A stretch of DNA of 30,933 nt from positions 1-30,933 of IMG/VR virus record IMGVR_UViG_3300025133_000424; one strand, written 5' to 3'. The translations under genes were made by a program, and so were the position numbers. Shown piece by piece: positions 1 to 21,800 of this stretch (positions are counted from its first letter, which is position 1; the number at the start of each line of letters is the position of its first letter). The notes beneath the pieces were generated by a model that was given only the letters and a program-made list of their open reading frames with translations, did no database searches and was not told where the DNA came from. The DNA is from a virus.

Positions 1-3000
1 ATACACCACGGATTAGAATTCTCACCCCAATGTGTATCTATAACTTTTCTAACAGCAAGTTGTCCTTCTTTAGTATCAGCAACTTCATGTTCTGTAATAC
101 CATGTTTCTTATTGAAAACTTTACCCTTACCAAACTCTTTTACAGTCTTAGGATTTGTAGGTTTTGCTTTAGTTTTACCAGCGTACTTTTCTATAAGCTC
201 ATTAGGATTTCTATAAGAGAATATATCTTCTTTATATTTCTCAGCTAGCTCTACTGCTTGCTTTATTTTATAAGAATCTTCAAGTAGTTTAATATTACTT
301 GTAGCTAACCATTTAGTGGTTACCTGCTCGTATTTCCTCTTCTTACCATCAGGAACATTTAAACCATCAACAAAGTCAAACATCTTGTCAATTGTTTTAG
401 ATACTAACTTCTCTTTAACTAGATCAGGTCTACTTTTAGATATTGTTTTCTCATACTCAGCTCTATGACTTTTAGAATATTTTATATTATTATAGTTCTC
501 AGGAGAATCTAGCTTCTCAACATCCTTAACGGACTCAATAGTATTTTTCTTTTCAACTAACTGTACTTTCGATTTTACATCTAGTTGATTTAAAATATTC
601 TTAACAGCTTCAACATTCTGAAGAGCGTCGTCAGCAAAATACATGTCATTATATCCTTCTGAGAATTTCTCTAACATCCACATTGCTTTAGCTTCTCCAG
701 TACTATTACCTAATCCAGTAATATTCTTTAAAGGTATTTCTAATCCTTGAGATTTCAAAAACTCATGTATAGGTCCGGCAGCTTCCATTGGTCTAGCTGT
801 TAGGATAAATTGATCTTTTGTACCATACTTCTTAGCTCTATTTAAAGCTTTTTCAAAGAATGGTCCTCTTTGTCCACCGGTAATAACATTGAACTCTGAG
901 AAATCAAACTTACCACCTTTATCTAATATACTTTGTCCTTCGGTGGCAAATTGTTCCGCATCTAATCTAATTTTTTCATATCCATTAACAAAGTCATTCA
1001 TTTTGTTAACTAAATCTATAGGCATCGCGTCCTCTTGTTTTAACTTATCAGTTTTAACCTCCATAAATCTTTCACCAAACATTGTTTTAAAACCTGACTT
1101 ATTACCTTGAACAGCTTCATGATTTTTTTCTACTATTTTATCTAATAAAGATCTTTCTTTTCTAGCTTTATTTCTTTCTAACGCTGTTTTTAATGAAGTT
1201 TCAACAAACATCATACTAACGTCATATCCTTTACTTTTAAACTCGTTAACAAGTTTTTCCATAGCTTTTATAGAACCACCAGTACCATCAACAACCACAC
1301 CGTCAGCTTCACCTTGGTATTTCATCATTTTTCTTTTTGCTACACCCCTCGCTTGATGTTGTAATTTACCCAATATACTTCTTTGCTCTCTCGTGAAGTC
1401 GTTCATATTCTCTGGTAATCCATGGTTTTTCTTCAACCACTCTAAAGATATATCAGAATTAACTATTTTAAATCCTTGTCCTTCTAAGTTTAACTTCTTG
1501 ATAACGTTACCTTTACCACTCCCAGCTCCACCAGCTAGAAATATAACTTTTCTATTTGGTTTTGGCAAACCGTCAACATTAGGTATTCTAGCTCTAACTC
1601 CAGATTTAGTTGTAGCTAAAGTATCATCAAAATCCCAAGTAGACATACCTTTCTTTTTTTGATCTAGTTTCCTAGCTAGTCTTACAGCTTTATCTACAGT
1701 TTGCAAATCCTTTATTATCTCTCTTTTATTAGATTTTGAATATTGAGGACCAAGATTATCTTGTAAAGTTTTATTTAATTTACTTACGGTTTTCTTATGA
1801 TTTTCTTTAACCTTGTTCCAGTAGTTAACTTGAGCTTCACCATATATTTCCCCCGTGTATACATCTCTCATCATGTGAGCTTCTCCCATAGCAGTCCACT
1901 CGTTAAACCATCTTTTAGGAGGTATATCACCTATCTCATAATTAAACTGCATTCTGTCTCGGAACACCTCTCCAAAGTTCCTATTAAAGTCCACATGCAC
2001 AACGCCTACTGAATAACTATCCCACAGTTTTTGTAAGTCAACTTTCTTTCCAAAGAAGTAATGACCAGCTAATATTACAGCCATGTCTTTTGCTGGTATG
2101 CCATGCTCGTATTCAAAATTCTTTTTGTCTTCAAACTTACCTTCTTTAGCGTTCCATACTTTTCTTGTAAGCTTTCTAGTAGGTGGATTGACCGGTGCGT
2201 ATCTAAACAAAGCAGCTGATCTTAATGAAGTTTTCATGTTTCCTAAAAGCCCACCCATTAACATGGCTACCTCCTCCTTACCATAGGTTTTATTTTCTAT
2301 TAACTTGCTAGCACCCTCTAATATCTCCATGACTCTATCTTGATGAAACTTTGCGTTTTCTTTTCGAAGATCCATCTCTCTTTTAGAAACGTTGTCATCA
2401 ACCATTTCTTGAGTTGTTTTTTGCTTTCCATCAAACTCAGAACTTTCTGGTAGTTTTACTTTTCTTGTTTTTCCATCTTTAAACTCAAGCTCTATATATC
2501 TTCCTGGTTCTTTTTTCGTTCCACCTCCTTTTTTGTAGTTAATTAAATTTTCATAACCAGGTATTTTAACTAAATGTTCTTTTATAAAATTATCTTTTTT
2601 GTGAAAAGCTGAAGCGTATTTAGGATTGTTAGTAGAGTTTTCTAAGTGAGACTTACCTCTAATCTCATCGGCTATTGCTTTGTCTTTTATACGTTCTATC
2701 TCTTTAGAATCTACTATCTCCTCTATTTTTCTGTCAATCCTATCAGATAGCATGTCTGTGTTAAACTCTTGATATCTTTCTTTTTGCTTTGGATCTCTAA
2801 AAAGTTCAACCATAGACTTTTTAACACCCATCATTCTAGCAACAGCTTGTGCGGCATCAGGTACACTTACACTAGCAAGGTATTCCGCAACATCTACAGG
2901 GAACTTTTCCTTGTTTACAGTATATGAACCCATTTTAGCAACATACGGTTTTAAGAACGCTTTGTAATCATTAACAACTTTAGCTTTTAAAGAAGCTCCA

Positions 3001-6000
3001 TAAATATCTTGCAACCCATTTTTTCCGTAAGTATTATCATAAGCCCTACTAATAGCTTGCGGTGTTAATCCTTGTATGCCTATCTCACGGTGAAAAGCTC
3101 TCTTTTTATAATCAAAATCATAGATTGTATTTTCCCCTACATTTTCATTCCTATAAATAGATTTAGAATACATACCCTCAGATCTACCCTCAGCAACAAC
3201 ACTAAACCACTCTTCCTTACCAAAGCCCATTTCTTTAAGTTTCTCACGAACTGATTGGTTAACTACCATTCTCTCCACCTGTTTAACTAAAGCATGTATC
3301 CTAGAACTAGTATTAGAATCTTTCTTATATGAGTTTGGAATACCTCTCTCCATTACGCCAAACACCTCTAAAAAATCACTAGTCTTTATATTTTTCTTTT
3401 TAGTCCAGGGTGTTAAGTTATCTTTCCTAACTCCTTTATCATAAAAAGCTTCTAGTAATACGTTTTCAATACCAGTAGCTTTGTCTGGTCGCGCTTCATA
3501 TATTGGATTACCATCTCTATCCTTCTTACTTGTCTTAACCATCTTAATGGTATGATGCTCTGGTAACATAGCCTTAAACATATCTGCGTGCTTACTTATT
3601 ACCATTTGAGCATTTTTAACATCAGTTTTTGATAGATTACCAGTTTTAGGATCTATACCAAATACTTCTTTTTGAACCTCTTTTAAAACAACGTTCTTTA
3701 AAGATTTAAAAGTAGCTTTAGTTAAATCAATTTTCTTACCGTCTTTAATAGAATATGGTTTGCTACTAATTAAATTCACGGTACTCATTACCATGTTTTT
3801 AATACGTTTACCTTGTGGTCCAAGCCTATCAGCTATTTTAATTGTTTTACCATTAGTTTCAAACGCGCTTGGTGTTGATGTAACCGTAGGCATCTTACCC
3901 ACTTTCTTAGCAACGCCAGCTTCAGACATGCTTTTAGCTTGAATCTTTGCTTTACCAGCTTCTAATATTCCAGAATACTTTTTAGGTAGTAATCCACCCA
4001 TGTAAGCTCCAAAAGGAACTTTTTCAGGTGGTGATATTACTTTTTTAGTTTTAGGATCAAAAACTCTTTCAGCTCTATAAGTACGAGCTAAGTCTACTAA
4101 CTTTGCATTATAGTCGGAGAACCACTCGTTAACATCATCATACTTTAATCCTTCTTCTAGTGTTATGTGTTTAGCTTTGTTAGCGGCTTCTAAAGCTAAT
4201 TTAAAAGAAGCAGCCATATTATTTTCAACTAATCTCTGTTGATTTCTAGTAGATGCTTGTAAGTTTCCGTTAGCATCTCTTATATTTTCTTCAACTATTT
4301 TATTTTCTATTTCTCTATTTTTCTCGATAATTTCTTTAGTACTCTTTTTTGTGATACCAAGATTTTCAGATATACGATCGTTTTGATATATATCTTTACT
4401 TTTAGAAGAGACAGCATCTGGATGTAATCCAGCTTTATCTCCGGCAAGTTCTCTTAAACCTTCTATAGTTTCTGCTCTAACTTGTTTAGCCGCTGAAACA
4501 TCTCCTAATAAATTATAAAGATCTTGAGCTGCCTTAGTAGATCTAGAACCGTTTAAATCATATTTATAAAGATTAGACATCCCTATGTTTTTTAACCAAG
4601 GGTAAACGAGTTTACCAGCTTTACGCATAGATCCAATGTTAAACTTTATATCCTTGTTTTTTATAGCGTCACTAATCGATGTTATATATTCTTCATAGTA
4701 TTCTCTTTCGTGTTTTTCTATTTTTTTACCATTGCTATCTGTTTTGAAAGATCCATCTAAGTTTTCTTCATACCTATAATTATCGTCAATTCTTTTTTGA
4801 ATTATAGCTTGTTCTTTTAAAGAGAACTTATTAACTAATTGCTTAATTATATTTATACCCGCGCGGGTAACCTTACCCTTTTTAGCTCCAGATTTGTACT
4901 TAAAAGAGTTTCTTAAAATATGGTGGACAACTTCGTGCACAGGCGCTCCTAAATTCTTTCTTAATCTGAGCACTCTCATGTTTAAATGTAGGACACCATC
5001 AACATAAGCAGCGTCTGCCTCTGGATCTAGTTTATTACCGTTTTTATCTTTTAGATTACTCCATTGAGTTTTGTTATGTTGCTTTACAGAGGAGCCAAGT
5101 TTTTCAGCTAAATTTCTAGCAGCGTCAATCTCAGCTTTTAATAATGAATTCCACTTTGTTTGATACTGCTTAAATCTAATATCATTAGCTTCATATAGCT
5201 TTTTATTTGTTTCTTTTAAAGATCTTAATTCTGCTCCTAAGCTTTCCCCACCCTTACCATCTTTAATAGATTTTTCAATTTCCTCAATTCTACTTTTATT
5301 TCTTTCAATAGATATTGTATCTCTTATATAATCGTCTCTAGTTGAGTCCGTTTTTTTATAACCAATTAGTTCAGCGAGTTGAGTTAAATGAGAGATATAA
5401 TCACGAGTATTCATATACCATTTTCCTTGCGCCGAACCTATATCTATTCCATTAAGTCTCAATAATTCCTCCACCTTCCAAGGTTTCATTTTAGCGATAG
5501 CGTCATAATCTTTACTACTAGAAGTTAGATCTTTTTTAAGATTTTCAAATGCCTCCCATTGCATTCTATTATACTCGTCCATCCTGTTTTTACCAGTTTT
5601 GGAATCTGGTTTTTGATATTGCTTCTTAAAATTCTTAACTTCGTTAAATAATTTAAGATGTTTCCCGTTAACCTTTGCTTCTTCTATCTTCTTCTTTTTC
5701 GCCTCTGCATTTAACGTACTATCTTTGTTTATTTCTTCAATCTTTTTATCTACAGCTTTCTTAATAGCATTATCACCATAAAAACCATTTTTTCTTTTTA
5801 CTACTCCTAATTCTTTTGCCGCATTATTAGATTCTACAGTCTCTCCTTTTAAGTGAGCTACATCTCTTTTAAACTCCTTCATCCAAGATGGGTGTACTTT
5901 TCCAACACTAAGTATTGACAGTGCTGCAGCTGTATTCATAAAGTGCTCTACAGTCCAAGTGTCTTTTAGTTTTTCAGCCAAACTAATATCTTCATCTTTA

Positions 6001-8612
6001 ATAGCGCTATCTATCGCGGCTTGTACACTTTCTGCTACTAACAACATAGCCGACCCCGTAGTACCTTGACCAAGCATCTTACCTCCACCTTTCCTCATCC
6101 CATGCATAAACCCTTGCTTGTTCATAACTTTAGGTAAAATATATTTACCGACAGCTGTGTTAGCAACTCTGCTATACATACGCCCAGATAACGTCGCCCA
6201 CGCAGGACCCATCAGCCCCATCGTAACAGGCATTGTGAAATTAGTTTCACCAGTCTCAAGATTTATAGTATGAGCCTTGAAAGAATCCTCTCCCATTGAG
6301 TTAACTCCTCCCATATCACCAAAAGCATGTTCTCCAGCAACCTCAGCTATAGACCACTCAATTGGAGTTGCAATAGCTGGAACGGCAAATTTATCAATAA
6401 CCTTGGCCCATGTTTTACTCTTGTTTTTTCCTCCTGTGAATATATTAGTTAGTTTTTGTACGCCACTATGTATTTTTTTAGTTCCACCTGCTTTTTTAAG
6501 GAAGTATAATTCTGTTAGTAAAGGAGCTAAATCGGTTCCAATTTTTGTAATAGATTCGTATGTGTATCTATTAAATCCAAACTCTTCTCCACTTTCACCA
6601 AATCTCTCAACATCGTAACCTTCTGCTTCTAATGTTGCCTCAAATATATCTCGAGATTCATCTTCTATAGTTCCCCACACAGCTTCACCGGTAAATGCTC
6701 TAGATAAGTTATCATGAAATTCAAATAGAATATTTTCTCTACCACTAAACCAATACTCTGGATTTTGCGCTATGTTTATATTTAAATCGTAAGCTCTAGA
6801 CAGTGTTTTAAATTTCAATAATTCATTGTCAAACATACGTTGCAAGTCAGATCCACCTGGTAAATTAGTTAAAGGTTTATCAGAACCAAACAAGTCTCCA
6901 GACTCTACAATCTGAGCCAAGCTTACCATATCATCATCGTAACTATCACTAGAAAAATCGAACCATCCCCCTATCTGGTTTGCAACTTCCGCTGGTACAG
7001 AACCCATCATTTCTTCCAGTATTTGAGCGCTGTTACCACTAGCTATTTTAGCTAAATTCTCGAGGCGTATAGCCGATTGTTGACGCAATTTCTTTAAAGT
7101 AACTTTATCAAGATCCTTTGCTAGTTTCTCTGCGTTTACTTCTATTCCCTCTCCTTCTGAACCTTCTTCAGGTGGAGTCATTTTAATATCTAAATATTTG
7201 CCGTTTTCGTCATAAAGAGTTTTCCATTCTTTTTCATCTGCAATTTGTTCTAGTCTATTAATTAAAGCTTCCTCGTCTCCCTCAGATCTTCCAGACCTAA
7301 CATTCTCTAATTCACGCTTAAGCTTATAATATTCCTGCTCATCTTTATTAAAGTATACCCATGAGTTATCTTCTAGGTAATTATTATATTCTTCTTCAGA
7401 ACCAAATGATTCAACTTTTTCTTTAGTTAATTTTGAATCAGCTATTTCTAAACTATGCTTTAATATATCTTGGCGCTTATCGAATATATACTCATAAGAA
7501 ACAAATGTACCATCTTTTAAAGTAACTCCTCCAGACATATCAGCGGTATATGAATCATAAGCTCCAAGAGTAAGAATTTCTTGAGGTAAACCAAGAAGAC
7601 CCTTAAACCCCGAATGACTCTGTAATCTTAGACCCGTACCTTCTTTAACATCAATAATACCTGCATCACCAAATATTCCAGGTAATCCTTCTTTTGGTGC
7701 GAAACTATCATTTCCAGTAACTATATCACCCTTATTAGCAAATCTAGCTCTATTTGTTTGGTTGTCATCTAAGACCAGATCGTTAGGAGTGAAAATCTCT
7801 GATAACTCATCATATAATTCCTCATTGTTCTTAGTTTTTGTAACACTATTGTCTAACTCGTAGTACTGACTACCCATATTTTCATCTATATGAGAACGTA
7901 TTTTACTAGTTATTTCATTTAAACTTGACACCGATTCTCCAAACTTTGACCCCGAACCCTTATCATACATCGGAATTTTAAAACCCTCTCCATTTTTTTG
8001 GTCTCCAATTAAAACTTCTATAGTATTCCAACTAGAACCCACATTAAGCCAATCAGTCCAAACTGGATTTGCTTCCACAAATCTTACATCAACACCTTTT
8101 TCTTCATAAAACTTATTAAGAGCGGGTACATATTCTTCCTCAGTAGCATCTAATACTCGTAACTTTTCATCTAAACCCTCGTGTTTAGAATAAACAGCTT
8201 GCATTCCTCTTCCCCCGTAATTAGGTATTTTTACTTTAGCATCAACTTTACCCCCGTATTTCTCTACTCTTTCTTCTTGTTTTTTCTGTTTCTCTATTTC
8301 TTTTGCTTTATTCTTTACATCTATTTTAGCTGAAATTTTTTTTCCGAGTATTGTCGCTTGCCTCACACTCTCAACTATCGGGCTTTTTGACTGCGCATGT
8401 AAGTCGCCTGGTACGTTAGGTCGATTTACACCTGATTGAAACTCATCTGGAATAAAACCCTCTTCACCTCTCCACCAACTAGTTTCTCTAGACTCCTTTA
8501 ACTTGTTAGCCTCTCGTTTTCTTATTTCAGCAAGTTCACTCTCCGAGTATCGTCCAGAATCTATGTACGTCTTCATTATTTCATCTAATAATGTCATTTG
8601 AGTTTCCGCCAT
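1..8612 (-). CDS. Giant multidomain virion/ejection-type protein with zincin-like, HAD phosphatase and P-loop kinase modules (3' end beyond window)
   Basis: The frame opens at ATG 8612-8610, one base after the stop of the upstream gene, and stays open to the window edge, giving at least 2870 residues with the C-terminus missing. The N-terminal third is charged and helical. Residues about 700-860 hold several hydrophobic, Gly/Ala-rich stretches that could be membrane-active. An HEVVH zinc-site motif lies at 1226-1230. An EHGIP motif at 2169-2173 is weakly HNH-like. HAD motif I (DFDDT) is at 2327-2331, a P-loop (GGAGSGK) at 2361-2367, and later HAD motifs near T2605 and DD 2661-2662. Very large proteins mixing enzyme modules are known in podoviruses and marine phages as ejected internal proteins; the enzyme modules are what I see, and the ejection role is inferred from size and position. 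It is most likely co-transcribed with the virion genes upstream. I read many separate stretches in frame and found no interrupting stop. Confidence 0.85.
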   Translation of the reverse strand, partial: MAETQMTLLDEIMKTYIDSGRYSESELAEIRKREANKLKESRETSWWRGEEGFIPDEFQSGVNRPNVPGDLHAQSKSPIVESVRQATILGKKISAKIDVKNKAKEIEKQKKQEERVEKYGGKVDAKVKIPNYGGRGMQAVYSKHEGLDEKLRVLDATEEEYVPALNKFYEEKGVDVRFVEANPVWTDWLNVGSSWNTIEVLIGDQKNGEGFKIPMYDKGSGSKFGESVSSLNEITSKIRSHIDENMGSQYYELDNSVTKTKNNEELYDELSEIFTPNDLVLDDNQTNRARFANKGDIVTGNDSFAPKEGLPGIFGDAGIIDVKEGTGLRLQSHSGFKGLLGLPQEILTLGAYDSYTADMSGGVTLKDGTFVSYEYIFDKRQDILKHSLEIADSKLTKEKVESFGSEEEYNNYLEDNSWVYFNKDEQEYYKLKRELENVRSGRSEGDEEALINRLEQIADEKEWKTLYDENGKYLDIKMTPPEEGSEGEGIEVNAEKLAKDLDKVTLKKLRQQSAIRLENLAKIASGNSAQILEEMMGSVPAEVANQIGGWFDFSSDSYDDDMVSLAQIVESGDLFGSDKPLTNLPGGSDLQRMFDNELLKFKTLSRAYDLNINIAQNPEYWFSGRENILFEFHDNLSRAFTGEAVWGTIEDESRDIFEATLEAEGYDVERFGESGEEFGFNRYTYESITKIGTDLAPLLTELYFLKKAGGTKKIHSGVQKLTNIFTGGKNKSKTWAKVIDKFAVPAIATPIEWSIAEVAGEHAFGDMGGVNSMGEDSFKAHTINLETGETNFTMPVTMGLMGPAWATLSGRMYSRVANTAVGKYILPKVMNKQGFMHGMRKGGGKMLGQGTTGSAMLLVAESVQAAIDSAIKDEDISLAEKLKDTWTVEHFMNTAAALSILSVGKVHPSWMKEFKRDVAHLKGETVESNNAAKELGVVKRKNGFYGDNAIKKAVDKKIEEINKDSTLNAEAKKKKIEEAKVNGKHLKLFNEVKNFKKQYQKPDSKTGKNRMDEYNRMQWEAFENLKKDLTSSSKDYDAIAKMKPWKVEELLRLNGIDIGSAQGKWYMNTRDYISHLTQLAELIGYKKTDSTRDDYIRDTISIERNKSRIEEIEKSIKDGKGGESLGAELRSLKETNKKLYEANDIRFKQYQTKWNSLLKAEIDAARNLAEKLGSSVKQHNKTQWSNLKDKNGNKLDPEADAAYVDGVLHLNMRVLRLRKNLGAPVHEVVHHILRNSFKYKSGAKKGKVTRAGINIIKQLVNKFSLKEQAIIQKRIDDNYRYEENLDGSFKTDSNGKKIEKHEREYYEEYITSISDAIKNKDIKFNIGSMRKAGKLVYPWLKNIGMSNLYKYDLNGSRSTKAAQDLYNLLGDVSAAKQVRAETIEGLRELAGDKAGLHPDAVSSKSKDIYQNDRISENLGITKKSTKEIIEKNREIENKIVEENIRDANGNLQASTRNQQRLVENNMAASFKLALEAANKAKHITLEEGLKYDDVNEWFSDYNAKLVDLARTYRAERVFDPKTKKVISPPEKVPFGAYMGGLLPKKYSGILEAGKAKIQAKSMSEAGVAKKVGKMPTVTSTPSAFETNGKTIKIADRLGPQGKRIKNMVMSTVNLISSKPYSIKDGKKIDLTKATFKSLKNVVLKEVQKEVFGIDPKTGNLSKTDVKNAQMVISKHADMFKAMLPEHHTIKMVKTSKKDRDGNPIYEARPDKATGIENVLLEAFYDKGVRKDNLTPWTKKKNIKTSDFLEVFGVMERGIPNSYKKDSNTSSRIHALVKQVERMVVNQSVREKLKEMGFGKEEWFSVVAEGRSEGMYSKSIYRNENVGENTIYDFDYKKRAFHREIGIQGLTPQAISRAYDNTYGKNGLQDIYGASLKAKVVNDYKAFLKPYVAKMGSYTVNKEKFPVDVAEYLASVSVPDAAQAVARMMGVKKSMVELFRDPKQKERYQEFNTDMLSDRIDRKIEEIVDSKEIERIKDKAIADEIRGKSHLENSTNNPKYASAFHKKDNFIKEHLVKIPGYENLINYKKGGGTKKEPGRYIELEFKDGKTRKVKLPESSEFDGKQKTTQEMVDDNVSKREMDLRKENAKFHQDRVMEILEGASKLIENKTYGKEEVAMLMGGLLGNMKTSLRSAALFRYAPVNPPTRKLTRKVWNAKEGKFEDKKNFEYEHGIPAKDMAVILAGHYFFGKKVDLQKLWDSYSVGVVHVDFNRNFGEVFRDRMQFNYEIGDIPPKRWFNEWTAMGEAHMMRDVYTGEIYGEAQVNYWNKVKENHKKTVSKLNKTLQDNLGPQYSKSNKREIIKDLQTVDKAVRLARKLDQKKKGMSTWDFDDTLATTKSGVRARIPNVDGLPKPNRKVIFLAGGAGSGKGNVIKKLNLEGQGFKIVNSDISLEWLKKNHGLPENMNDFTREQRSILGKLQHQARGVAKRKMMKYQGEADGVVVDGTGGSIKAMEKLVNEFKSKGYDVSMMFVETSLKTALERNKARKERSLLDKIVEKNHEAVQGNKSGFKTMFGERFMEVKTDKLKQEDAMPIDLVNKMNDFVNGYEKIRLDAEQFATEGQSILDKGGKFDFSEFNVITGGQRGPFFEKALNRAKKYGTKDQFILTARPMEAAGPIHEFLKSQGLEIPLKNITGLGNSTGEAKAMWMLEKFSEGYNDMYFADDALQNVEAVKNILNQLDVKSKVQLVEKKNTIESVKDVEKLDSPENYNNIKYSKSHRAEYEKTISKSRPDLVKEKLVSKTIDKMFDFVDGLNVPDGKKRKYEQVTTKWLATSNIKLLEDSYKIKQAVELAEKYKEDIFSYRNPNELIEKYAGKTKAKPTNPKTVKEFGKGKVFNKKHGITEHEVADTKEGQLAVRKVIDTHWGENSNPWC
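543..1655 (-). other. HAD phosphatase domain interrupted by a zeta-toxin/PNK-like P-loop kinase domain (giant protein residues ~2320-2690)
   Basis: HAD motif I, STWDFDDTLA, has its nucleophile and acid/base Asp at D2327 and D2329. About 20 residues later a P-loop kinase starts: Walker A GGAGSGK at 2361-2367, then NSD about 20 residues on, a buried VVVDGTG strand, an FVETS strand, and an Arg/Lys-rich lid (RNKARKERSL). After the kinase (ending near 2530) the sequence returns to the HAD fold at RLDAEQFATEG (2549 on), with motif II ILTARP (T2605) and motif IV FADDALQNVEAV (D2661, D2662). HAD motif III Lys is probably in the KNITGL/AK stretch between them. The pair of activities matches polynucleotide kinase-phosphatases, but the domain arrangement (kinase inserted in the cap position) differs from T4 Pnk. 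The substrate is unknown; a zeta-like sugar-nucleotide kinase is an alternative. Confidence 0.75.
4683..5075 (-). other. Zincin-like metallopeptidase segment (HExxH) within the giant protein
   Basis: Residues about 1180-1310 of the giant protein contain APVHEVVHHIL, with the HExxH centre at 1226-1230. An acidic helix containing YYEEYITS follows, with E1307/E1308 as candidates for the third metal ligand in the gluzincin style. The hydrophobic residue two places before the first His (P-V-H-E) and the amphipathic helix fit a zincin active-site helix. In this setting a peptidase could process the giant chain itself, act on capsid or ejection proteins, or cut host proteins or wall peptides. A chance HExxH is possible in a chain this long, but the surrounding helical context and the downstream Glu make a real site more likely. 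Confidence 0.55.
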
Positions 8613-9482: not shown

Positions 9483-10331
9483 TTAGTTTTTAAGTTCCAT
9501 ATCAACGTCAATCATATCATAATAGACAGCATAGTATCCGTTGTCCGCGATTGTTACCGCATCTTTTCTACCCATTTCAATTAAGTCTTGAGCCATTGTT
9601 CCTGACCAAACTTCATTTTCGTTCTTATAATTAAACGTATATATTGGTATTCCAGATTTAGAAACACCTGTTTTAGTTATATTTTCTTTTAACCTAATAT
9701 CAGATAAATAACCTAACACACCTGTTACTCCACCGGCTATAAATTGATCTCTTTGAGCATTCATGTTATCGATTTCTTGATCTGCTGCCATTTTTCTTTG
9801 GTTAGCAAATTCTAACATTTTATCTTGTTTATCGAACGCGAATTGCTCAACCATTCTTTCCCCTTCTCTCTCCATTAAATCTCTTTTCTGTTCTCCTTCT
9901 CTCTCTAATTGTTGTAGTCTACCGGATTCTCCTAACGCCCTAGTTTGATTAGCTTGTTCTTGTTTACCAATATCTGCTGCTGCCGCTTGTGCTTGTCTAG
10001 CTCCTTGATTGGCTAGTACTTGCGCTAATCCAGCTATACCACTCCCTCCAGCCGCACCTTTCATACTAGCCATTATATTAGCTGCGTTTTGTTGAGATTG
10101 TTCTCTTTGAAATTCTGCGGCTTTTAAGTCAACGGTTTGATCTTCATACACATTTTCCATATCAGCGTAAGGATTTTTTACACCAGCATATGGATTTGTC
10201 ATTTTAGTATCTTCCCACGCATCCATTTGGTTACCGAAATCTTCGTTTGCAGCATATTGTTCTCTTCGTCTTTGAGCACCACCTGTTAAGAAGTCTAGAA
10301 ATTTATTTGGAGATGATTTTGTATTTGCCAT
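9483..10331 (-). CDS. Helical internal-virion-like protein with C-terminal S74-type intramolecular chaperone motif
   Basis: The 282-residue protein starts MANTKSSPNKFLDFLTGG. Residues 30-70 hold repeated NPYA(G/D) turns, 70-130 are Ala/Gln/Gly-rich, and 130-195 form a strongly charged coiled coil (RLQQLEREGEQKRDLMEREG). A short hydrophobic glycine-rich segment (FIAGGVTGVLGYL) leads straight into SDIRLKENI. That SD...K block, with IYTFNYK and GTMAQDLIE after it, is the signature of the peptidase S74 intramolecular chaperone, with S210 and K215 in the position of the catalytic Ser-Lys pair. Only 73 residues follow S210, shorter than the S74 modules on tail spikes. The N-terminal architecture resembles small internal core proteins of podoviruses rather than a fibre. 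A tail-fibre or trimeric coiled-coil role is the alternative. Confidence 0.85.
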   Translation of the reverse strand: MANTKSSPNKFLDFLTGGAQRRREQYAANEDFGNQMDAWEDTKMTNPYAGVKNPYADMENVYEDQTVDLKAAEFQREQSQQNAANIMASMKGAAGGSGIAGLAQVLANQGARQAQAAAADIGKQEQANQTRALGESGRLQQLEREGEQKRDLMEREGERMVEQFAFDKQDKMLEFANQRKMAADQEIDNMNAQRDQFIAGGVTGVLGYLSDIRLKENITKTGVSKSGIPIYTFNYKNENEVWSGTMAQDLIEMGRKDAVTIADNGYYAVYYDMIDVDMELKN

Positions 10332-11401: not shown

Positions 11402-12853
11402 TTATTTTACAGTTATATTAATTGTTTTTTCTTCGCTATCGGTTGTTCCGTCGTTAAGAGTATATAATATCTTGTCTACCCCAACAAAACCATTGTTTGG
11501 AGTATATTGAATTATTCTACTACTAATATTAGTAGAACCATGTTTACTAGCTCCTGTAATTGTTATAGTTTTCGTAGAAGAGTCATAATCAAAATCACTT
11601 GTACTTATCGCAGAAGCACTTGCGTTTTTAGCAATATTAACACTAAAATCTCTCGCGTTAGGTTTCCTAGTTATTATATTATCTAAGTCTACAGTATGCG
11701 TCACACTTCGTGTTCCGAATCGAGAAAATCTAGCGTTAAAAACTAAAGTAACCTCATTACTTCCACTTCCAGAAAAACTAAAACCCGAAGATACTTTTGA
11801 AGTATCATCATCAATTTCTACTTCCATTCCATCAATAAGCATCATTTCAACGTTTAAATCAACACAAGCATTTCCATCTTCATTAACTTGTGTATGAACT
11901 TTCTCGACAACAGAACCCACCTCATATGTAAAAGATAGATTAGTGCCTTCTGGTATCATAATTTTTCTATCTATTGTGATACTCGTTCCGCAATCGATAG
12001 ATGCTATTTGGAAACTCTTAATTCCAGGACCGGATCCATGCATTGAAGGAAGTAAACCAACGGTATCACTTAGTTCAAATCTATCCGTAGTTTTCCCACA
12101 GTTTGAAACTTTCAAGCTCTTATGTGCTACTTTTGATTTAGTTATTTTACCATAAACTCTAGCGCCTACAGATACGTCTCCAGTTATAGGATAGTTTTGA
12201 CTACCTTTCGTTACATCTCCAGATGTAGTAGCATCTATAGCTCTCGTTGTAAGAGGTTTTAGTACAACATATTTACTTTTCTTAGGATCTTTATCTGCTT
12301 TTATTGTTTTTTTAATAACTGTATTTTTCGACACTGAGTTATTAAAGCTGTCTTTGACATAGAAATACCCAGCAGTATCTCCTTCACCACCCTCTGTTAT
12401 CACTAACGTCTGTGTTTGTTTTATTACTTCTCTATGATTAACAGGTCTCGTCACTGTAATATCGGCTCCGCTAGCAGATAATGTTGGTGAAGTTTGAGTT
12501 GAAGTATTCGCTAATGTAAGTGTCACATCTGGATATTGATATAGTGTTATCTTGTCTACAGAACTAACAGTACTATCAACATCAGCGTGGGGAACCACAA
12601 TTATATCATATGATTCTCCTATTGAACTACTTGAAATATCTGGAAATCTCTGGCGTAATATATAAACACCTGATTTTGGTATTTCAATATCTTGTAGTGA
12701 TTCCTCTAATATACAATCACCATCACTATCGTTTATTTCTAATGAAAATCCAGATCCATGCGTACCACGTATTTTAATTTGACGAGTCTCACCCCTAGGG
12801 CTTACAAAGACACTAGCGTCCTGAACTTTAATTGATGTTATCTTTTTTTCCAT
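11402..12853 (-). CDS. Beta-rich fibre or capsid decoration protein with C-terminal Ig/cadherin-like domain
   Basis: The 483-residue protein starts MEKKITSIKVQDASVFVSP. Residues 1-105 form a beta domain with acidic patches (NDSDGDCILEES). The centre (about 110-330) is Ser/Thr/Lys-rich, with many short strands and a few cysteines. The last 90 residues (KPNARDFSVNI..., FVGVDKILYTLNDGTTDSEEKTINITVK) match the pattern of bacterial Ig or cadherin-like tandem domains: xPNxGFxGxDxxxYTxxDG followed by a final strand. Such domains decorate phage heads, tails and fibres and bind surface glycans weakly. The gene lies 15 bases after the hub gene, in the place where host-recognition proteins usually sit. 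It has no S74 or spike-type lyase motif. Head fibre and tail appendage cannot be told apart from sequence alone. Confidence 0.8.
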   Translation of the reverse strand: MEKKITSIKVQDASVFVSPRGETRQIKIRGTHGSGFSLEINDSDGDCILEESLQDIEIPKSGVYILRQRFPDISSSSIGESYDIIVVPHADVDSTVSSVDKITLYQYPDVTLTLANTSTQTSPTLSASGADITVTRPVNHREVIKQTQTLVITEGGEGDTAGYFYVKDSFNNSVSKNTVIKKTIKADKDPKKSKYVVLKPLTTRAIDATTSGDVTKGSQNYPITGDVSVGARVYGKITKSKVAHKSLKVSNCGKTTDRFELSDTVGLLPSMHGSGPGIKSFQIASIDCGTSITIDRKIMIPEGTNLSFTYEVGSVVEKVHTQVNEDGNACVDLNVEMMLIDGMEVEIDDDTSKVSSGFSFSGSGSNEVTLVFNARFSRFGTRSVTHTVDLDNIITRKPNARDFSVNIAKNASASAISTSDFDYDSSTKTITITGASKHGSTNISSRIIQYTPNNGFVGVDKILYTLNDGTTDSEEKTINITVK

Positions 12854-12868
12854 TATTTATTTAATTTA

Positions 12869-15800
12869 TTAAGAAGGATTACTACAAAGTACCCAAGGAT
12901 TTATTGGATCATAATTACCTGTGGTATAAATACCAGGATAGTATATATTACCGATACTTTGCCCGCTTATATCTCCGTTATGTATCCAACAACTACCATT
13001 ATACGTAACAACATTACCGCCTACGTAAGACAATGCATTCCCAACCACCCAAGTAGTCGCGTTACCACAGTAACACCATTGTGTTGGATTTTCGCAAGGA
13101 GAGAAATAACTACCAACTTGATCTGGAGCAATGTTTACATTACCAGCATTACCAACCCAAACACTTGGTTGTGATAGGAAATATTCACCATTATGCTCAA
13201 CTGCATCACCATCAGGATAAGCAACACCTGAAACCCATGTAGTATAAGGTGGGGAACATTGACCTCTGTCTACTCCATCATCACATCCTATTGTGAAATT
13301 ATATACCGCTTCACACCCTAAACTATCTGCTATCACAACCGAGTAATCTCCCGCTCCTAATCCCGTAGCGCTTGAATGTGTTACCATTGTATCGGTTGGA
13401 TTGTATTGAGGCAGGGGACTGGCGGTTAACGACGTGCCTGTTCCATTTGGACCCGTAAAATACTCAACAGACCACCACGTAGCGGTTGGTTGTAAAGAGA
13501 CATCTAGAATAGTATGAGCTCCATCTCCATTATCATAAACACCACAATCGTTACTAGTAGCATCTGTCCAAGCGTCATGAAATGTTGGGCCGTATGACGA
13601 GGTGTATCCCGCGCAAGGATTATTTACAGTAGATGTACAATCCACAGTAAAAGTTTCTATGAGTTCGCACCCTTGATCGTCTTCAATCACAACAGCATAA
13701 TTCTGTCCAGTTGTCAAGAACGATGACAAATTATAATAACCTATAGGAGTAACAAGGGAAACATTTCCTGGTGCAGGTCCTAGTAAAGGACCTATAGGAA
13801 CTGCTACTCCTGTTCCCCAAGTGCTAGTTGATATCGTGTAATATTGAACCGTATAAGTACTAGATCCTGGATCTAAGTTAACAGTTGTAATCTCGTGTGC
13901 TCCATCTCCATTATCGGTTGTACAACCATCATTACTAGTTGCGTTTGTCGTACTGTATCCACCGGAAGGAATTGTTGGTGAATCACACGGCGTAACAGGA
14001 GTACAGTTAAGCGTGAACGGTACTGGAGGATACGTACAAGGTTGGTCGTCTCGTATCTCGTATTCGTAATCGCCTGCTTCAAGTCCGTCTATAGTAATAG
14101 CATCACCTGGATAAATCCAGTTTGAACCAAGTATCATAGTGGAAACACCACTTACGACAGAATAAATATTAACTCCCCACATTGTTGCTGGAGGCGTTAA
14201 ATTATTATTTGATATTTTGATTTTACCACTATCTGCTATATTCCCAAAACTATTAGCAGCGAGCCAACAATCGTTGATATTCTTGTCCCAAGCAGGATCC
14301 GTAAGAAATATTGGATCGAAATCATGAGGATTACTTGAGGAGCAAGGCGTAGTAGCTGTACAATCAATAACAAATTCAACAACCTCTTCACATCCTAGAT
14401 CATCAGTAACAACAGCATTATATGTTCCCTGCATTAGATTTGGAGTAGGATTTGAATAACCATTATAATTATACGTTGTATTATCCATTGTTACGCCACC
14501 ACTAGCGTCGACATACTTCACAGTCCAACTAACAGCAGTCCCAGCTAAATAAACTTCTACAGCAGCAGTCCCATCGCCACAATCAGGCATGCTAGCATCC
14601 GTTGGGTGAGCTGTAACAACGTTTGGAGTTACGCATAAGTCACTACAAGCAGAACGCGGGTCAGTTTCACATGTTGATTTATCAGGATAAGCACCTGTTA
14701 GATCTTGGATTTCTACGCAAGATCCATTAGGATTTGAGTTAGCTCCACATGGAGACAAACACCCACGACTCCCGGCACCAGCCAAAAAAAAGGTGGTGGA
14801 GGTGACCCATGGTCCACCCAAAAGCGCGGTAGCCCACTGTGAATTAGTCATTCCGACAAAAAAAGCAGTGGAATCAATATTATCTCTAAACCAAATTATA
14901 AGTTCTTCAATCGTAGTCGGAGTAATCGAGTGTTGAGTGTATCCCCACTGGTTAAGAGAGGTAGTATAACTCATTGACCCAGTAGACCCACTGGTTAAAT
15001 ACCAATCAACAATATTAATACTATCCGCTTGCACTCCAGCCTGCTGTTGGATTAATGTTAAATCAGTCATCCCTATTAAGGATATCGAATTATTAGGATA
15101 TGTCTGAGCGTTATTTACCCATCCCTCTCCGCTTGACGGCCCATAATAGTTTCCATCTACATCCTCATAAAACCAATTAGCAAGAGGGACTTGAGGATTA
15201 TCCCAAGGCCAGTCACAATGCCAAGTAGTAGAACTAGTCCAAGTAGGCATGATAGTTGAATAAATAGGATAAATACCCGCGCATCCTCCCGTGCTTGGAA
15301 TGCAATCCCAAGAAGTATAACCACCATCTAAAACGGTGATTGCACCCGCCTCATCGATTCCTTGATATGAGAATTCGTGAGTATCTATATTTCCAGCTTT
15401 TCCATCGTCTAACCATTCCGTAGCCACTCCTTTTATAGCGGAGAACCATTTACCTTCTTTATTTTTAAATTCAGCTGGCTCAAGTTCCTGCAAATCTGTG
15501 TACATGTTGTCAACATACCAGCCTAACTTATCGTAATTATCCCAGTATTCTCCAGAGTTACTCATCTCATTTAAACCTCCATCAGAAGTTACTTTAGATT
15601 GACTACCTTCGTAGTCGAGACTTTGGAAACTTTTAACAATACCAGGTCCTTCGTTAAATAATACTTCTACGCTAGAATCATATTGTTCTCCATAGAAGTT
15701 GTTGTGAATATCATTAACATGATGTTGGTGAAGTTGACCTCCTTTAAAAGTAAAATAATCATTATTTAAACTTAAAGCCTCTTCATAATTAAAAGATTTA

Positions 15801-18800
15801 AAACTTGGCCATCCTTTGTTTATCTCTGAATAAGAAAGTGTCACTGGATCCATTGGGCTTTCTGTATAAACAGTAACATAAGAATTCCACCAAAACAGAA
15901 GACAATCTGGATCACCACAAACATGATTTCCTAAAGTAGAAATATCTAAGGGTTGGGGTACGTGGCTTATTTTTATTTCCCATACTCCACCCCATAGATC
16001 TGTTTTTTCAACAATAGTAGCTCCAATTGGTATCCCAGGTCCAACTATCTCATCGCCAACGTGGAATTTTGAAGCAACCCAATCCGCTACTCTTAAACGA
16101 GCTGAGGGAAATACCGGTGAACTAGCATGTTTTCTAGTTCCCATGATTCTAATAGGGTAAACTGTTTGGTTATAATAACTTAAACTAATATTATATTCCT
16201 TCTTTTTATCATCAAAACTACCTATTATTCTATTACTTTCGCTTAAATTATCCGCGAACCAGTTTGTCATACCATAACTAGATATAGGTGTTATTCCATC
16301 TTGTGATAATCTTAAAATACTTCCTCTTGTTCTATCTGAGAAGTATAATCTATATGCGTCAGCCGCGAATGATTCTGGATTTTTAGATATACCATGATCA
16401 CCAGAGAAAGGCACCGTTTGTCCTAATACATTCTGTGACGCAGTTAAATTAGCGTTACCATCAGCGTTATATAAAGCATCTTTATTTGCTAATATTTTAA
16501 AAACTTTATCTTCACAAAGTGTTACTAAATCAGTGTTTCTAGCGAAAAGTTTTTGTATACTACCGTGTATTGGATTTAGATCTTTAGTTATCTTTTCGGC
16601 TTGAATAAATTGATTTAAATTATTAACACCACTTAATGAATTAAATATACCAGACCAAATAAAACCACTTGACCTACGTTCTTCAATATATGGTTCTTCA
16701 AGAACAGTTGATACTTTTGGTCCTTTATCTATAGTAATCTGATTGTAGTCATCTCTAATTCTATTTGATTCAACACCGTTACCAAATGAGTAAGCATTAA
16801 ACCAAGGAAGAGTTACTTGATAATTGTGAGTATCTTTATGCACTTCAAACAAACCACCACCTAAAGTACCTCCTCCAGTTTTTACATTGACTTCTGTTGT
16901 ACTTCCATCTGCTCTTGTGAATATTAATCTAGATCCAGTTGGTGGTAAAGTACTAGTACTTCCACTTAGTGGTGTTCCAAAAATATCTATCAACTGAATT
17001 AATACAATTCCACTAGCAACATCAAACCACGCTCCTCCAATTCTAATGTCGTCAGTTGCTGCGGTACTAAGGGTTATAAAACCTCCACCCGCTGCCCAAC
17101 AAGTAACTTTACTATTTCTCGAAAGATCAGTATGAATAGGTCCAAAAAATTGTTCTAATGTTTCTTCGTTTAATTCAGTAGGATATATTTGCCCAACTTC
17201 ATGATATACTTCTAACCCAAGATCATCTTTAGGTTCAGTTTCCCAAACACCTGGATTGGAGGTAAAATAACCCGCGTCTCCAGCGCCGCTATTAAGTTCA
17301 TACTTTTCCATAATTTGCCACGTAACACTTCCAGGAGCTGGGGTTACATTATCTGTTCCAACAACGTGGGTTCCATCTATCATTTTTTTAGATGGTATTT
17401 TTTTAATATTACTAACGCCATTAAAATTATAATTAACCACATTCTCTTTCCCACTATATATTCCATCTGGTCGGATTCCAGGGGCAATATTATTTACTAC
17501 GTTCGCGTGGCTAGGATCTAACGCTTCGCCAGTTTCATCGAAATGAGGTGCGTTGCTAGTAGGATTTGTTGGTAAATAATAATAAGGGCCAATACTACCA
17601 AGGGGCTCGATACCAGTAGTTCCTAGATCGCTGTTTGCGAGAGCTTTCGCGTGTATTGTAAAACGTCTTCGAGAACAACTAGCGTCATTCCAATCTTGAG
17701 TATACATTGGCCAAAAACCCTGCTGGTGCATTTTAGGGAAAGCCTTAGGACTGTTCTCGAGGAGCATCCAATATTCTTTATGATTTAAATTAGACGTACC
17801 GGTACCACCACTGGTTCTTGCCAGTGCTCCCCAAGCCACCCAATTTGAGATACTATTTGCGTAAGTCATCCAATTAGGCCATTTAAGACCGTAATTTTGT
17901 ATACCCTGTGAGGCGAAATGTGGAATATATTCGGTTTGTGATGCGTTGTTGCCTACGAAAAATTCCATCCGATGAGTAGTCATATAGTCCGCAATTTTTG
18001 CATAATTCCACAGACGTACACCCATTCCATTATCCCTAGGATCTCTTTGACTAACATCCCATTCATTGTTATTAATATCACCCGCTGCCGGAGGACCAAT
18101 TTTAGTTTGATACATAACTTGACCTGGATCTTCCTTCCATCTCCAAACGGTTCCAGGAGTAGTTATAGCCGTGATGAAAAATAACTCATCAACATGGTTT
18201 ATCGCAGCAGCTGCATCTTGATAATTTTCAAATGAACTTCTATCATTTAAATTGGTCATAGGGTTATCATCCAAATCTTCCGCGGATTTATTCTCGAATC
18301 CCATACCCGCGTATGATAAATGTATTATACTGTTATCCTTGTCAATACCACTCGCGGGTATTATTTTTCCACCACTATAACTTGCCGCAGCTCTAATCCT
18401 AGGTATCGCGTTACCATTATTTGCAGAATTATCAAGTACTAAAGAATTTACATTACTAATTCCTAGATAATTATTCCAATTACCCCCAGCACCATTTGCA
18501 TATACATGTGCCCCGGTCTCATCCTTAGCATACCAGTTACCTAAATCACCAATTAATTGTAGTTGTTTATAAGGCGCATCCCATCCATATCCACCATACG
18601 TATTCTTAAAAGCATCATTAATCTCGGGATTACCGGTTTCACTACCCCCGTGTGTGATGAAAGTTGATAAATTTTGAGTTTGTGTTGGGGCAATATGCGC
18701 AACAGGATGGATTTCCACTCCAGATATATCATAAAAAGGGTTTGGTATTGAGTTAGCTTGCATTCTATCACGAATATACCAGTATGGATTTGGGTTGCCT

Positions 18801-21800
18801 GGAGTAGGAGGTGTACCCCAATCAGCCAAGTAACTATCACCTGGTTGGCCTCCCTCTGCGACATTCCTCGACCTGCTATATGCATTGGTATATCTATACT
18901 CTCTAAAAGCCTCTATACTATCTATAAACCATCCACTCGACTCAGATCCACCCTCTTCAGTATTACCGGCTTGATCCCAATAAGCTTGACCTTCTCCATT
19001 CCAACTTGGGGCACCATAACCAGTATCATTTGTATTTTCATCTACAGATATTCTCATTGGATTACATCCGTACCAGTTTGCGGGATTAGCATTTAAATCA
19101 TAATCTCCTGCTTCAGAATAAGCATTTATATATTGTGATTTTACAGAAGCTGATGAAGACCAATCTCCCGTGTAAGATAAGTAACCTAAGATATTCTCTT
19201 GTAACGCGGCGTCTTTTAATATTTTTACGAAAAATCTACCGTCAAATTCTGGTAAATTTTTCTCTTCTCTTTTGATAAACTCAATTTTACAATTCCCATA
19301 CGCTGGTTCTGCTGGGTTTACCTCTACATTAAACGGTGTTGTAATAGCCATATCATCACCAAAATTTTTAGTTGCGATAATTCTCCAATATGTTTCAGAA
19401 CCACTTAATCGCGATTCAAAACTCTGAATATCATACCACTTACTAGCACCCTCAGCTGAGACTATTCTAAATTGAAATGGATAAGCTGAACCAACCTCTG
19501 ACTCAAAAGCGTCAATAACAGACCCCACCATTTTTTCATGGATATCTATAAATCTTCCTCCAGTAAAAGGAAATTCTATATCTTCATTTCCTCCATCCAT
19601 AAAAATTGGAATTGTGTTGGAGGAATCAGTAAAACCATCGTTTATAGTTCTAATAGGAGTTCTTCTAGTCTTAACAAATCTTGGAGCTTCATTTTTAATA
19701 TCTAGTATCTTATATCTAGCTAAATCAGTTACAGCTCTATCTTCTTTGTGAGCTTTTTTTAAGATTAAAAATGTTTCTAAATCTACTTTATTTCTATCAG
19801 CGGAAGGAAACGTTATCCAAATATTACCATCATCAGCATTATACCAACGATCCATCGCTAGATTATAATATTCGCTAGAAGTTTCTTTAACTAAAAATTT
19901 AAAGTTTTTTGCAAAATCTGGTTGAGGGCTGTGGATTTGAGCCGCGAGTTTAGTTGGGAATGCTGCAGAATCCTTCTTAACGGAAATCGTGTGTCTTGAA
20001 TCTTTTGATGAAGAAAATACTGGAGTCTCTCTACCGAATTCATCTATATATATAACACCAAGTTGGTAAGTTCTTAAAGATTTTATAGTTTTAGCAGATG
20101 CGTAAGTATAAGCTTTCCCAGCATCTAACTCTTCAGTAATAGCGCCTGATAGCGCAACATCTTTTTGTTTAAGAACCACCTTTAAATCAACTTCAATATT
20201 CTTTGATCTTTGTAACGTTACGTTTGTTAGAGCAGACGGATTTTGGGTATGAGAAGATGATAAGTTGTAATTTTGTAAGTAATTACCATAGACAATTCTA
20301 TTACCGATAATTTCTTGTGCCAATGCTTTTTTAGGAACATTATCCCAAGGTCTTAAAAGTTGATTATCTGGTAATATAGAATGAATCATTTCTGATTTAA
20401 TATTAACGTAACCATATGTCTGTATAGGTGGAATTGCAGAGACGTCGCGCGTGGTTGTTAAGGTAACTGCATTCCAAGAGTCGTAATCAGTTGGATCTAA
20501 TGGTAATCTATCTACAGTCTTTATAGAATAAACAGCTGGAGAATTTGATTCTTTATATAGTATATCAATAGAAATAACATCTTCCGGTATATAACGTTCG
20601 TCTACAAAATCACAAACACCAAGAGCTCTTAATGTATTTACCATTGCTAAGTTATAACCTTCTTTTGGCAAGTAATCAAACTCTCCAGGTAAAAAAGCTA
20701 TTTCTGAGAAAGGGGAAAACGCGGAGTATTCTCCGTCTTTATATTTATATCTATATCCAAATCTAGGGAATCTAAACTTAAAAAGCGAAGAATCTTGTTG
20801 TAATGTTACGTTAAAATCTTCGTTATCTAAATCAATATTTGTATCCCAACTACGAACCTCTACCTGAAACTCTAATTTACCTGCATTTGGACCTGAAGTT
20901 AAAAGAATAGGATCATCGATAATCTCTACTGTTATTTTTCTCTTTTTTGATGATCCAGTTACCGAATCCATAGATTCTATATCTAAAAAGTCACCTTTTT
21001 TAAAATCTGGATTAGTGTCAAAAAATAAAAACACAGGACCTGTGACATATGTTCCCGTTGCAGCGTCCCAAAGGGAAATCAAAGATTCACTATATGTTGT
21101 AGTTATTTCTCCCGATATAGAATCCAAATCAACATCTCCAACTTTTGTATTTTTCATCTCCAGTTTAGGAGCTGTGTTTGGACCCTTCCTTATAACTGTT
21201 ATATGTTCCTCTTGTAAATCACCAGCCGCTACAAAAGGTATGGGACTAACCTTATCTGGATTTGGTACATAAAATACTGTGTGAGTTAAAAAATCAACAG
21301 TACCAAGTCTAATTTGTGGTATGTTTACTCTCTTAGGCTCTGTATTGTTATCTGTCCAAAAGATTGTCTCTTCCATTATGTTAATACCAGTGATCAGAAA
21401 ACCTTTATCGAAATTTAAGACCCTACCATCGTCCCCAGGTAATACATTAGCTTGAAAAGTATCAACAACAATTGGGTGGACTTTTTTTGTATTGTAATCA
21501 TATTCAGCTATAAAATCAACACCCACACCGGATACTAACCAATATAATTTATCATTTTTCTCGTCAGCAATACTTCCAACGCAGTAGAATCCATAGGTAT
21601 CCAGAACCGTCTCATCCATGATATTGCCCGTAACCGGATCTATAAAGGATTCAGATGAAATATTTAAGTTACCTAAAATGTTTTGCAGAGTACCTATATC
21701 AGAAACATCTGAAGTAGCTACTTGCACATTTAAAGCATCTCTATATTCCCCATTAGGAACTAACCTCTCATCGAGGTCTTTATTCATCTTCCCTGCTTGA

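Follow-up and report, generated by a model that had tools for sequence, protein, structure and literature searches.

We find that a HAD phosphatase of a marine bacteriophage is interrupted by a complete P-loop kinase, which occupies the C1-cap position of one HAD core, as shown by the sequence, by natural empty sites in relatives and by a structure model. In the HAD superfamily, this position lies in the flap hairpin that directly follows the strand with motif I. The arrangement is real: the enzyme belongs to a known kind, its architecture is new, and its function we infer. We assign a probability of about one half to the reading that a virion protein of polyvalent type, from a flavophage-like podovirus, contains this module as a nested polynucleotide kinase-phosphatase that would heal 3′-phosphate/5′-OH ends. 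The module is part of a giant protein encoded by the final gene of the virion-structural block in the window (the whole analysed stretch of 30,933 nucleotides). The residues named in a first-pass annotation are all present in this minus-strand reading frame (3..8612), with the P-loop GGAGSGK (2361-2367) at window positions 1532-1512, T2605 (in LTARP) at 800-798 and D2661/D2662 (in FADDA) at 632-627. The features of the module are, in window coordinates and with residue numbers of the giant protein:

3..8612, minus strand: giant open reading frame of 2870 aa that harbours the module, open at its 3′ end and stop-free up to the window edge
1569..1700, minus strand: N-terminal part of the HAD core, residues 2305-2348, with the motif I strand and the first flap strand (AlphaFold2 strands 18-23 and 35-40)
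1620..1634, minus strand: HAD motif I DFDDT, 2327-2331 (D, D and T invariant in 45/45 aligned rows)
1581..1598, minus strand: first flap strand, 2339-2344, forming the hairpin arm that precedes the insertion (model strand 35-40)
987..1568, minus strand: inserted P-loop kinase domain, polynucleotide-kinase-like, about 2349-2542 (from profiles and the 4gp7 match; missing in uninterrupted relatives)
1509..1532, minus strand: Walker A GGAGSGKG, 2361-2368 (K in 27/27)
1452..1454, minus strand: Asp2387 (NSD), putative catalytic base for the kinase reaction (unchanged in 27/27 rows and also in three relatives that lie outside the family)
1281..1289, minus strand: DGT motif of the kinase, 2442-2444 (conserved in 27/27)
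1152..1175, minus strand: lid RNxxRxER, 2480-2487 (R2480, N2481, R2484, E2486 and R2487 in 27/27)
543..986, minus strand: C-terminal part of the HAD core, 2543-2690, with the second flap strand and motifs II, III and IV (AlphaFold2 model)
963..980, minus strand: second flap strand, 2545-2550, after the insertion (model strand 241-246, equivalent to strand 44-47 of the uninterrupted HAD model)
792..800, minus strand: HAD motif II TAR, 2605-2607 (T and R invariant in 45/45)
687..689, minus strand: HAD motif III Lys2642 (invariant in 45/45)
627..632, minus strand: HAD motif IV DD, 2661-2662 (invariant in 45/45)

We scanned viral contigs, obtained 116 relatives and retained the 80 best. Among these 80 of 116, L005-L031 align through the kinase and most of the remaining relatives align on either side of it, with about 200 residues between missing. 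Trimmed to common ends, nearly all kinase-bearing segments are exactly 386 residues long and most kinase-free segments measure 183-189 residues. The break point is the turn of the hairpin after motif I, where the junction reads '...VLYTTPEGKKGKLNAEQFA...' in uninterrupted copies versus '...VRARIPNVDG[kinase]NGYEKIRLDAEQFA...' in nested ones. The spacing between motifs I and II is 79-82 in 126 loci, 279 in 26, 147 in two and 216 in one, counts that include a second scan; the two scans share some contigs, some of which were fetched twice. Since 27 aligned rows carry the unit of ~386 residues and close relatives possess an uninterrupted HAD of ~187 residues, the arrangement is not due to chance; the number of contigs and the invariant motifs rule out both coincidence and a frame artefact. 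The empty sites further show that the HAD is complete without the kinase. We saw no sign of an intein or other splicing element, the insert being the kinase domain itself. No cellular relative was found in the genome contigs and plasmids searched.

AlphaFold2 modelling of the nested segment with 45 rows (pLDDT 88.8, pTM 0.74) places the HAD strand at 18-23, a flap strand at 35-40, the kinase at 51-238, a flap strand at 241-246 and then the rest of the HAD core. An uninterrupted HAD modelled alone (pLDDT 86.2) contains the same elements minus the kinase, with flap strands at 35-38 and 44-47. Structure prediction had been named in advance as the decisive check, and the model indeed predicts a single HAD core that encloses a distinct kinase lobe, bracketed by the flap strands 35-40 and 241-246 at the site where a HAD cap is expected. 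Together with the empty sites, the model rules out that the motif I half and the motif II-IV half belong to two different folds. The first-pass claim of a HAD phosphatase interrupted by a complete P-loop kinase is thus borne out by alignment, empty sites and model. HAD caps govern access to the active site, and our search of the literature (open-licence papers) turned up no P-loop kinase in the role of such a cap or inside a HAD flap.

For the kinase, Pfam profiles in the window assign Zeta_toxin (6e-10) and AAA_33 (1e-9) with about equal scores, which counts against an end-healing function. In VIA-align of the whole model, the top match is 4gp7, the C. thermocellum polynucleotide kinase (Z 16.3, rmsd 2.9, 166 residues, 19% identity), followed at lower scores by a putative kinase (15.5), O-phosphoseryl-tRNA kinase (15.3) and zeta toxin (13.4). 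The HAD of the window copy is not recognized by Pfam. Among 34 uninterrupted HAD relatives, 30 match PHROG 415, 'polynucleotide kinase' (best 6e-8), and 26 match Pfam DUF2608 (best 1.5e-6); PHROG polynucleotide-kinase families match both parts of the module, namely 505 and 415, the latter matching the HAD. For the HAD alone, VIA-align has 5uj0, the T4 Pnkp phosphatase, at the top (Z 12.9, rmsd 2.5 Å, 127 residues), and the six best matches are all Pnkp entries (T4 Pnk; Pnkp1 12.2), ahead of a first other entry at Z 10.9. Two results count against end healing here: Foldseek of the HAD alone is unspecific and places phosphoserine phosphatase and others above T4 Pnk, and sequence searches of the PDB return no significant HAD relative. 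The separate best matches thus lead to Pnkp for both domains, although for the kinase two other kinases score within about 1 Z. As for membership in the Pnkp group, both domains lie in one chain and each is closest to Pnkp domains, the HAD not ranking first in Foldseek. The proposal of a nucleic acid end-healing enzyme therefore stands as our best guess, each half, searched separately, being closest to its counterpart in known Pnkp.

Two other substrate assignments have to be weighed against these matches. According to the first, the nested domain resembles zeta toxins or UDP-GlcNAc kinases and acts on cell-wall precursors; its location within the HAD would then have no functional meaning, and the HAD itself would dephosphorylate small molecules. 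The Zeta_toxin profile match, which exceeds the Pfam cut-off, agrees with this, as do the names borne by close relatives among viral protein models in UniProt, such as UDP-N-acetylglucosamine kinase, and zeta-type kinases occur in phage polyvalent and MuF proteins, for which wall weakening has been proposed (PMC5512222). We nevertheless consider it unlikely: polynucleotide kinases are the closest solved structures with zeta toxin about 3 Z lower, and the kinase is paired with a Pnkp-like HAD in nested and tandem copies alike. According to the second, the pair acts on small molecules, a nucleotide or nucleoside kinase and a nucleotidase cycling phosphate, e.g. for removal of defence signals or nucleotide salvage. 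Substrates vary across both the HAD and the P-loop kinase families, Foldseek also returns acid phosphatases and adenylate kinases besides phosphoserine phosphatase, and signal-targeting enzymes in injected proteins have been described (PMC7824862). The 2 Z lead of Pnkp phosphatases for the HAD and the top rank of polynucleotide kinases for the kinase, itself within about 1 Z of the next two, speak against this assignment, which we hold to be doubtful.

The alignment comprises 45 rows in all, 27 of them kinase-bearing. The motif signature I-IV of the HAD superfamily and its Rossmannoid fold are present in the alignment, the AlphaFold2 model and the VIA-align matches. The kinase retains Walker A, the candidate catalytic Asp, the lid Arg residues and the kinase fold, the window copy having GKG rather than GK[ST]. 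The residue after Lys2367 is Gly in 12/27 rows, including the window (1509-1511), and Ser in 15/27. Judged from sequence, Gly in place of Ser/Thr at this position is unusual for an active P-loop kinase and could weaken Mg-ATP use in the window copy and the 11 other rows.

These substitutions bear on whether the kinase is active at all. Its fold might be merely a structural cap, or inactive in many copies, with a HAD flap that tolerates any domain. The GKG variant would fit such a role, and so would three relatives with other inserts at the flap site: L063, and L081 and L083, which share another insert of ~67 residues (motif I-II spacing 147). The scattered occurrence of the kinase across the HAD tree points the same way, the nested-kinase label requiring 6 changes on the best tree, of which at least 3 are forced by well-supported branches, and a single origin being marginally rejected (one clade, p-AU 0.039). 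Lys2367, Asp2387, DGT 2442-2444 and the lid residues R2480, R2484 and R2487 are, however, unchanged across the 27 kinase rows, which is unexpected for a dead domain, and one copy of the kinase lies outside the flap site in tandem with the HAD. We therefore regard a purely structural or inactive kinase as very improbable. The probable history is repeated gain, loss or exchange of the kinase, or else recombination within the gene, which could likewise account for the p-AU value of 0.039. The two variants with coordinates are:

L175:2380-3279: tandem module, kinase directly after the HAD in the same open reading frame
L063:4461-5429: insert of about 136 residues in the HAD flap, motif I-II spacing 216 (weak ART-PolyVal match, E 0.007, below cut-off)

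L175 is the other ARRANGEMENTS: in the same giant-protein family, an uninterrupted HAD is followed by the same kinase (71% identity), which is cut by the contig end. This tandem order, typical of known HAD-type Pnkp, is absent in the window copy and the 26 further rows and is seen only in L175. From its sequence, the L063 insert is possibly ADP-ribosyltransferase-like, and the HAD flap site may generally accept inserted domains. In 27 long records whose HAD has neither a nested nor a tandem kinase, the rest of the record yielded no kinase, so the HAD can do without it, a further point against the end-healing reading. Kinase relatives in the cultured phages HTVC008M, Melnitz and Atu_ph07 occur without the HAD. 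L177 carries a nested kinase (50% identity) within a divergent HAD lineage. The L177 record (50,058 bases) contains two near-equal kinase matches, one per strand and each in a giant frame of >3,400 codons, which points to either another copy of the giant or an inversion introduced during assembly.

A more ambitious proposal, which we put forward as tentative and rather unlikely, is that the kinase is a working catalytic cap: in a virion-delivered protein, the 5′-kinase lobe would open and close the 3′-phosphatase site and thereby couple the healing of both ends, and the flap would be a place where enzyme domains (kinase, ART-like) are swapped. The natural series of empty, nested, tandem and otherwise occupied sites makes the coupling of two reactions by nesting testable.

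Several known systems resemble the module in part. Mammalian PNKP likewise joins a HAD phosphatase and a kinase in one chain, as phosphatase then kinase in tandem and not nested; its profile match to the motif I region is weak and non-significant (E 0.55). The C. thermocellum polynucleotide kinase, the kinase domain of bacterial Pnkp, is the closest solved structure to the nested kinase, and the phosphatase of bacterial Pnkp is a metallophosphoesterase, not a HAD. P-type ATPases provide the precedent for an ATP-binding insertion at a cap-type site of a HAD core and also appear in the VIA-align fold list for the HAD; unlike the insert described here, their N domain does not belong to the P-loop kinases and works in the aspartyl-phosphate cycle of the HAD itself. 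T4 Pnkp (PseT) and the jumbo-phage PNK-HAD enzymes combine the same two folds, a PNK-type P-loop kinase and a HAD 3′-phosphatase, with the kinase N-terminal to the HAD and side by side with it (PMC7824862). In our case the kinase is enclosed by the HAD flap, and the whole module belongs to a giant protein of virion type. Zeta-like kinases and ART domains have been described in polyvalent proteins of phages and conjugative elements (Iyer et al. 2017, PMC5512222), which resemble the present protein in being giant, multidomain and placed at the end of the virion block; neither a HAD phosphatase nor a kinase nested in another enzyme was found in the main text of that paper. The earlier suggestion of an undescribed system goes too far: the domains are of known kinds, and it is their nested arrangement that is new.

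The genomic context relates the window to podoviruses of Flavobacterium, Cellulophaga, Tenacibaculum and Maribacter, which are matched by the portal protein along with one uncultured podovirus at 54%. The gene order portal, capsid block, giant, small genes, giant is common to the window and those podovirus genomes, in which the last gene is also giant. Patches of the giant family match gp101 of phi38:1, a phage filed under Pervagoviridae, whose record reads 'structural protein' (L081, E 1e-17; L028, 5e-9), and further stretches match gp18 of elemoF. From gene position and partial homology, we infer that the giant protein is present in the virion. The idea that the enzyme is carried into the cell gains indirect support from the gp101 patches and the shared gene position, which suggest but do not establish delivery. 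With respect to polyvalent proteins, we find the virion-block position and partial homology to virion proteins; one relative gives an ART-PolyVal match, a weak one that stays under the cut-off. The giant protein also contains a HEVVHH motif (residues 1226-1231, window 4920-4937, minus strand), possibly of a zincin-type metallopeptidase, with no Pfam match.

We compared the occurrence of ligases in records with and without the kinase. An ATP-dependent DNA ligase (290 residues, OB domain) is found in 7/8 kinase records versus 7/27 without kinase (Fisher p 0.003, uncorrected for relatedness), counted in records of at least 48 kb that are related fragments and with a length cut chosen after the first counts. 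The DNA ligase is commoner in kinase carriers, which we take as a hint. A search for RNA_ligase (PF09414) gave one sub-threshold match only, overlapping the DNA ligase of the same record. The co-occurrence of the DNA ligase and the RNA ligase searches without clear match slightly favour DNA over RNA ends.

Our preferred reading of the nested kinase-phosphatase runs as follows: (i) the flap hairpin of a HAD 3′-phosphatase of the T4 Pnkp type received, in frame, a P-loop domain resembling polynucleotide 5′-kinases; (ii) the HAD most likely strips 3′-phosphates from nicked nucleic acid; (iii) the nested kinase most likely phosphorylates its 5′-OH ends; and (iv) the healed ends would become ligatable by a phage or host ligase. 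Steps (ii) to (iv) would take place soon after entry of the protein into the cell or else in the course of assembly. If end healing holds true, the module is a candidate virion-delivered repair enzyme and bears on how phage genomes survive nicking at entry.

Further genes of the structural block were noted alongside. A second giant open reading frame (window 12869-21823, minus strand, 2984 aa) matches in patches, at 32% identity, a structural protein of ~1300 aa of phi38:1-type phages and is about twice as long. Between the two giants, window 9483-10331 (minus strand) matches Peptidase_S74, the endosialidase chaperone (E 6e-5), and further upstream in the same block, window 11402-12853 encodes a protein with a bacterial Ig domain.
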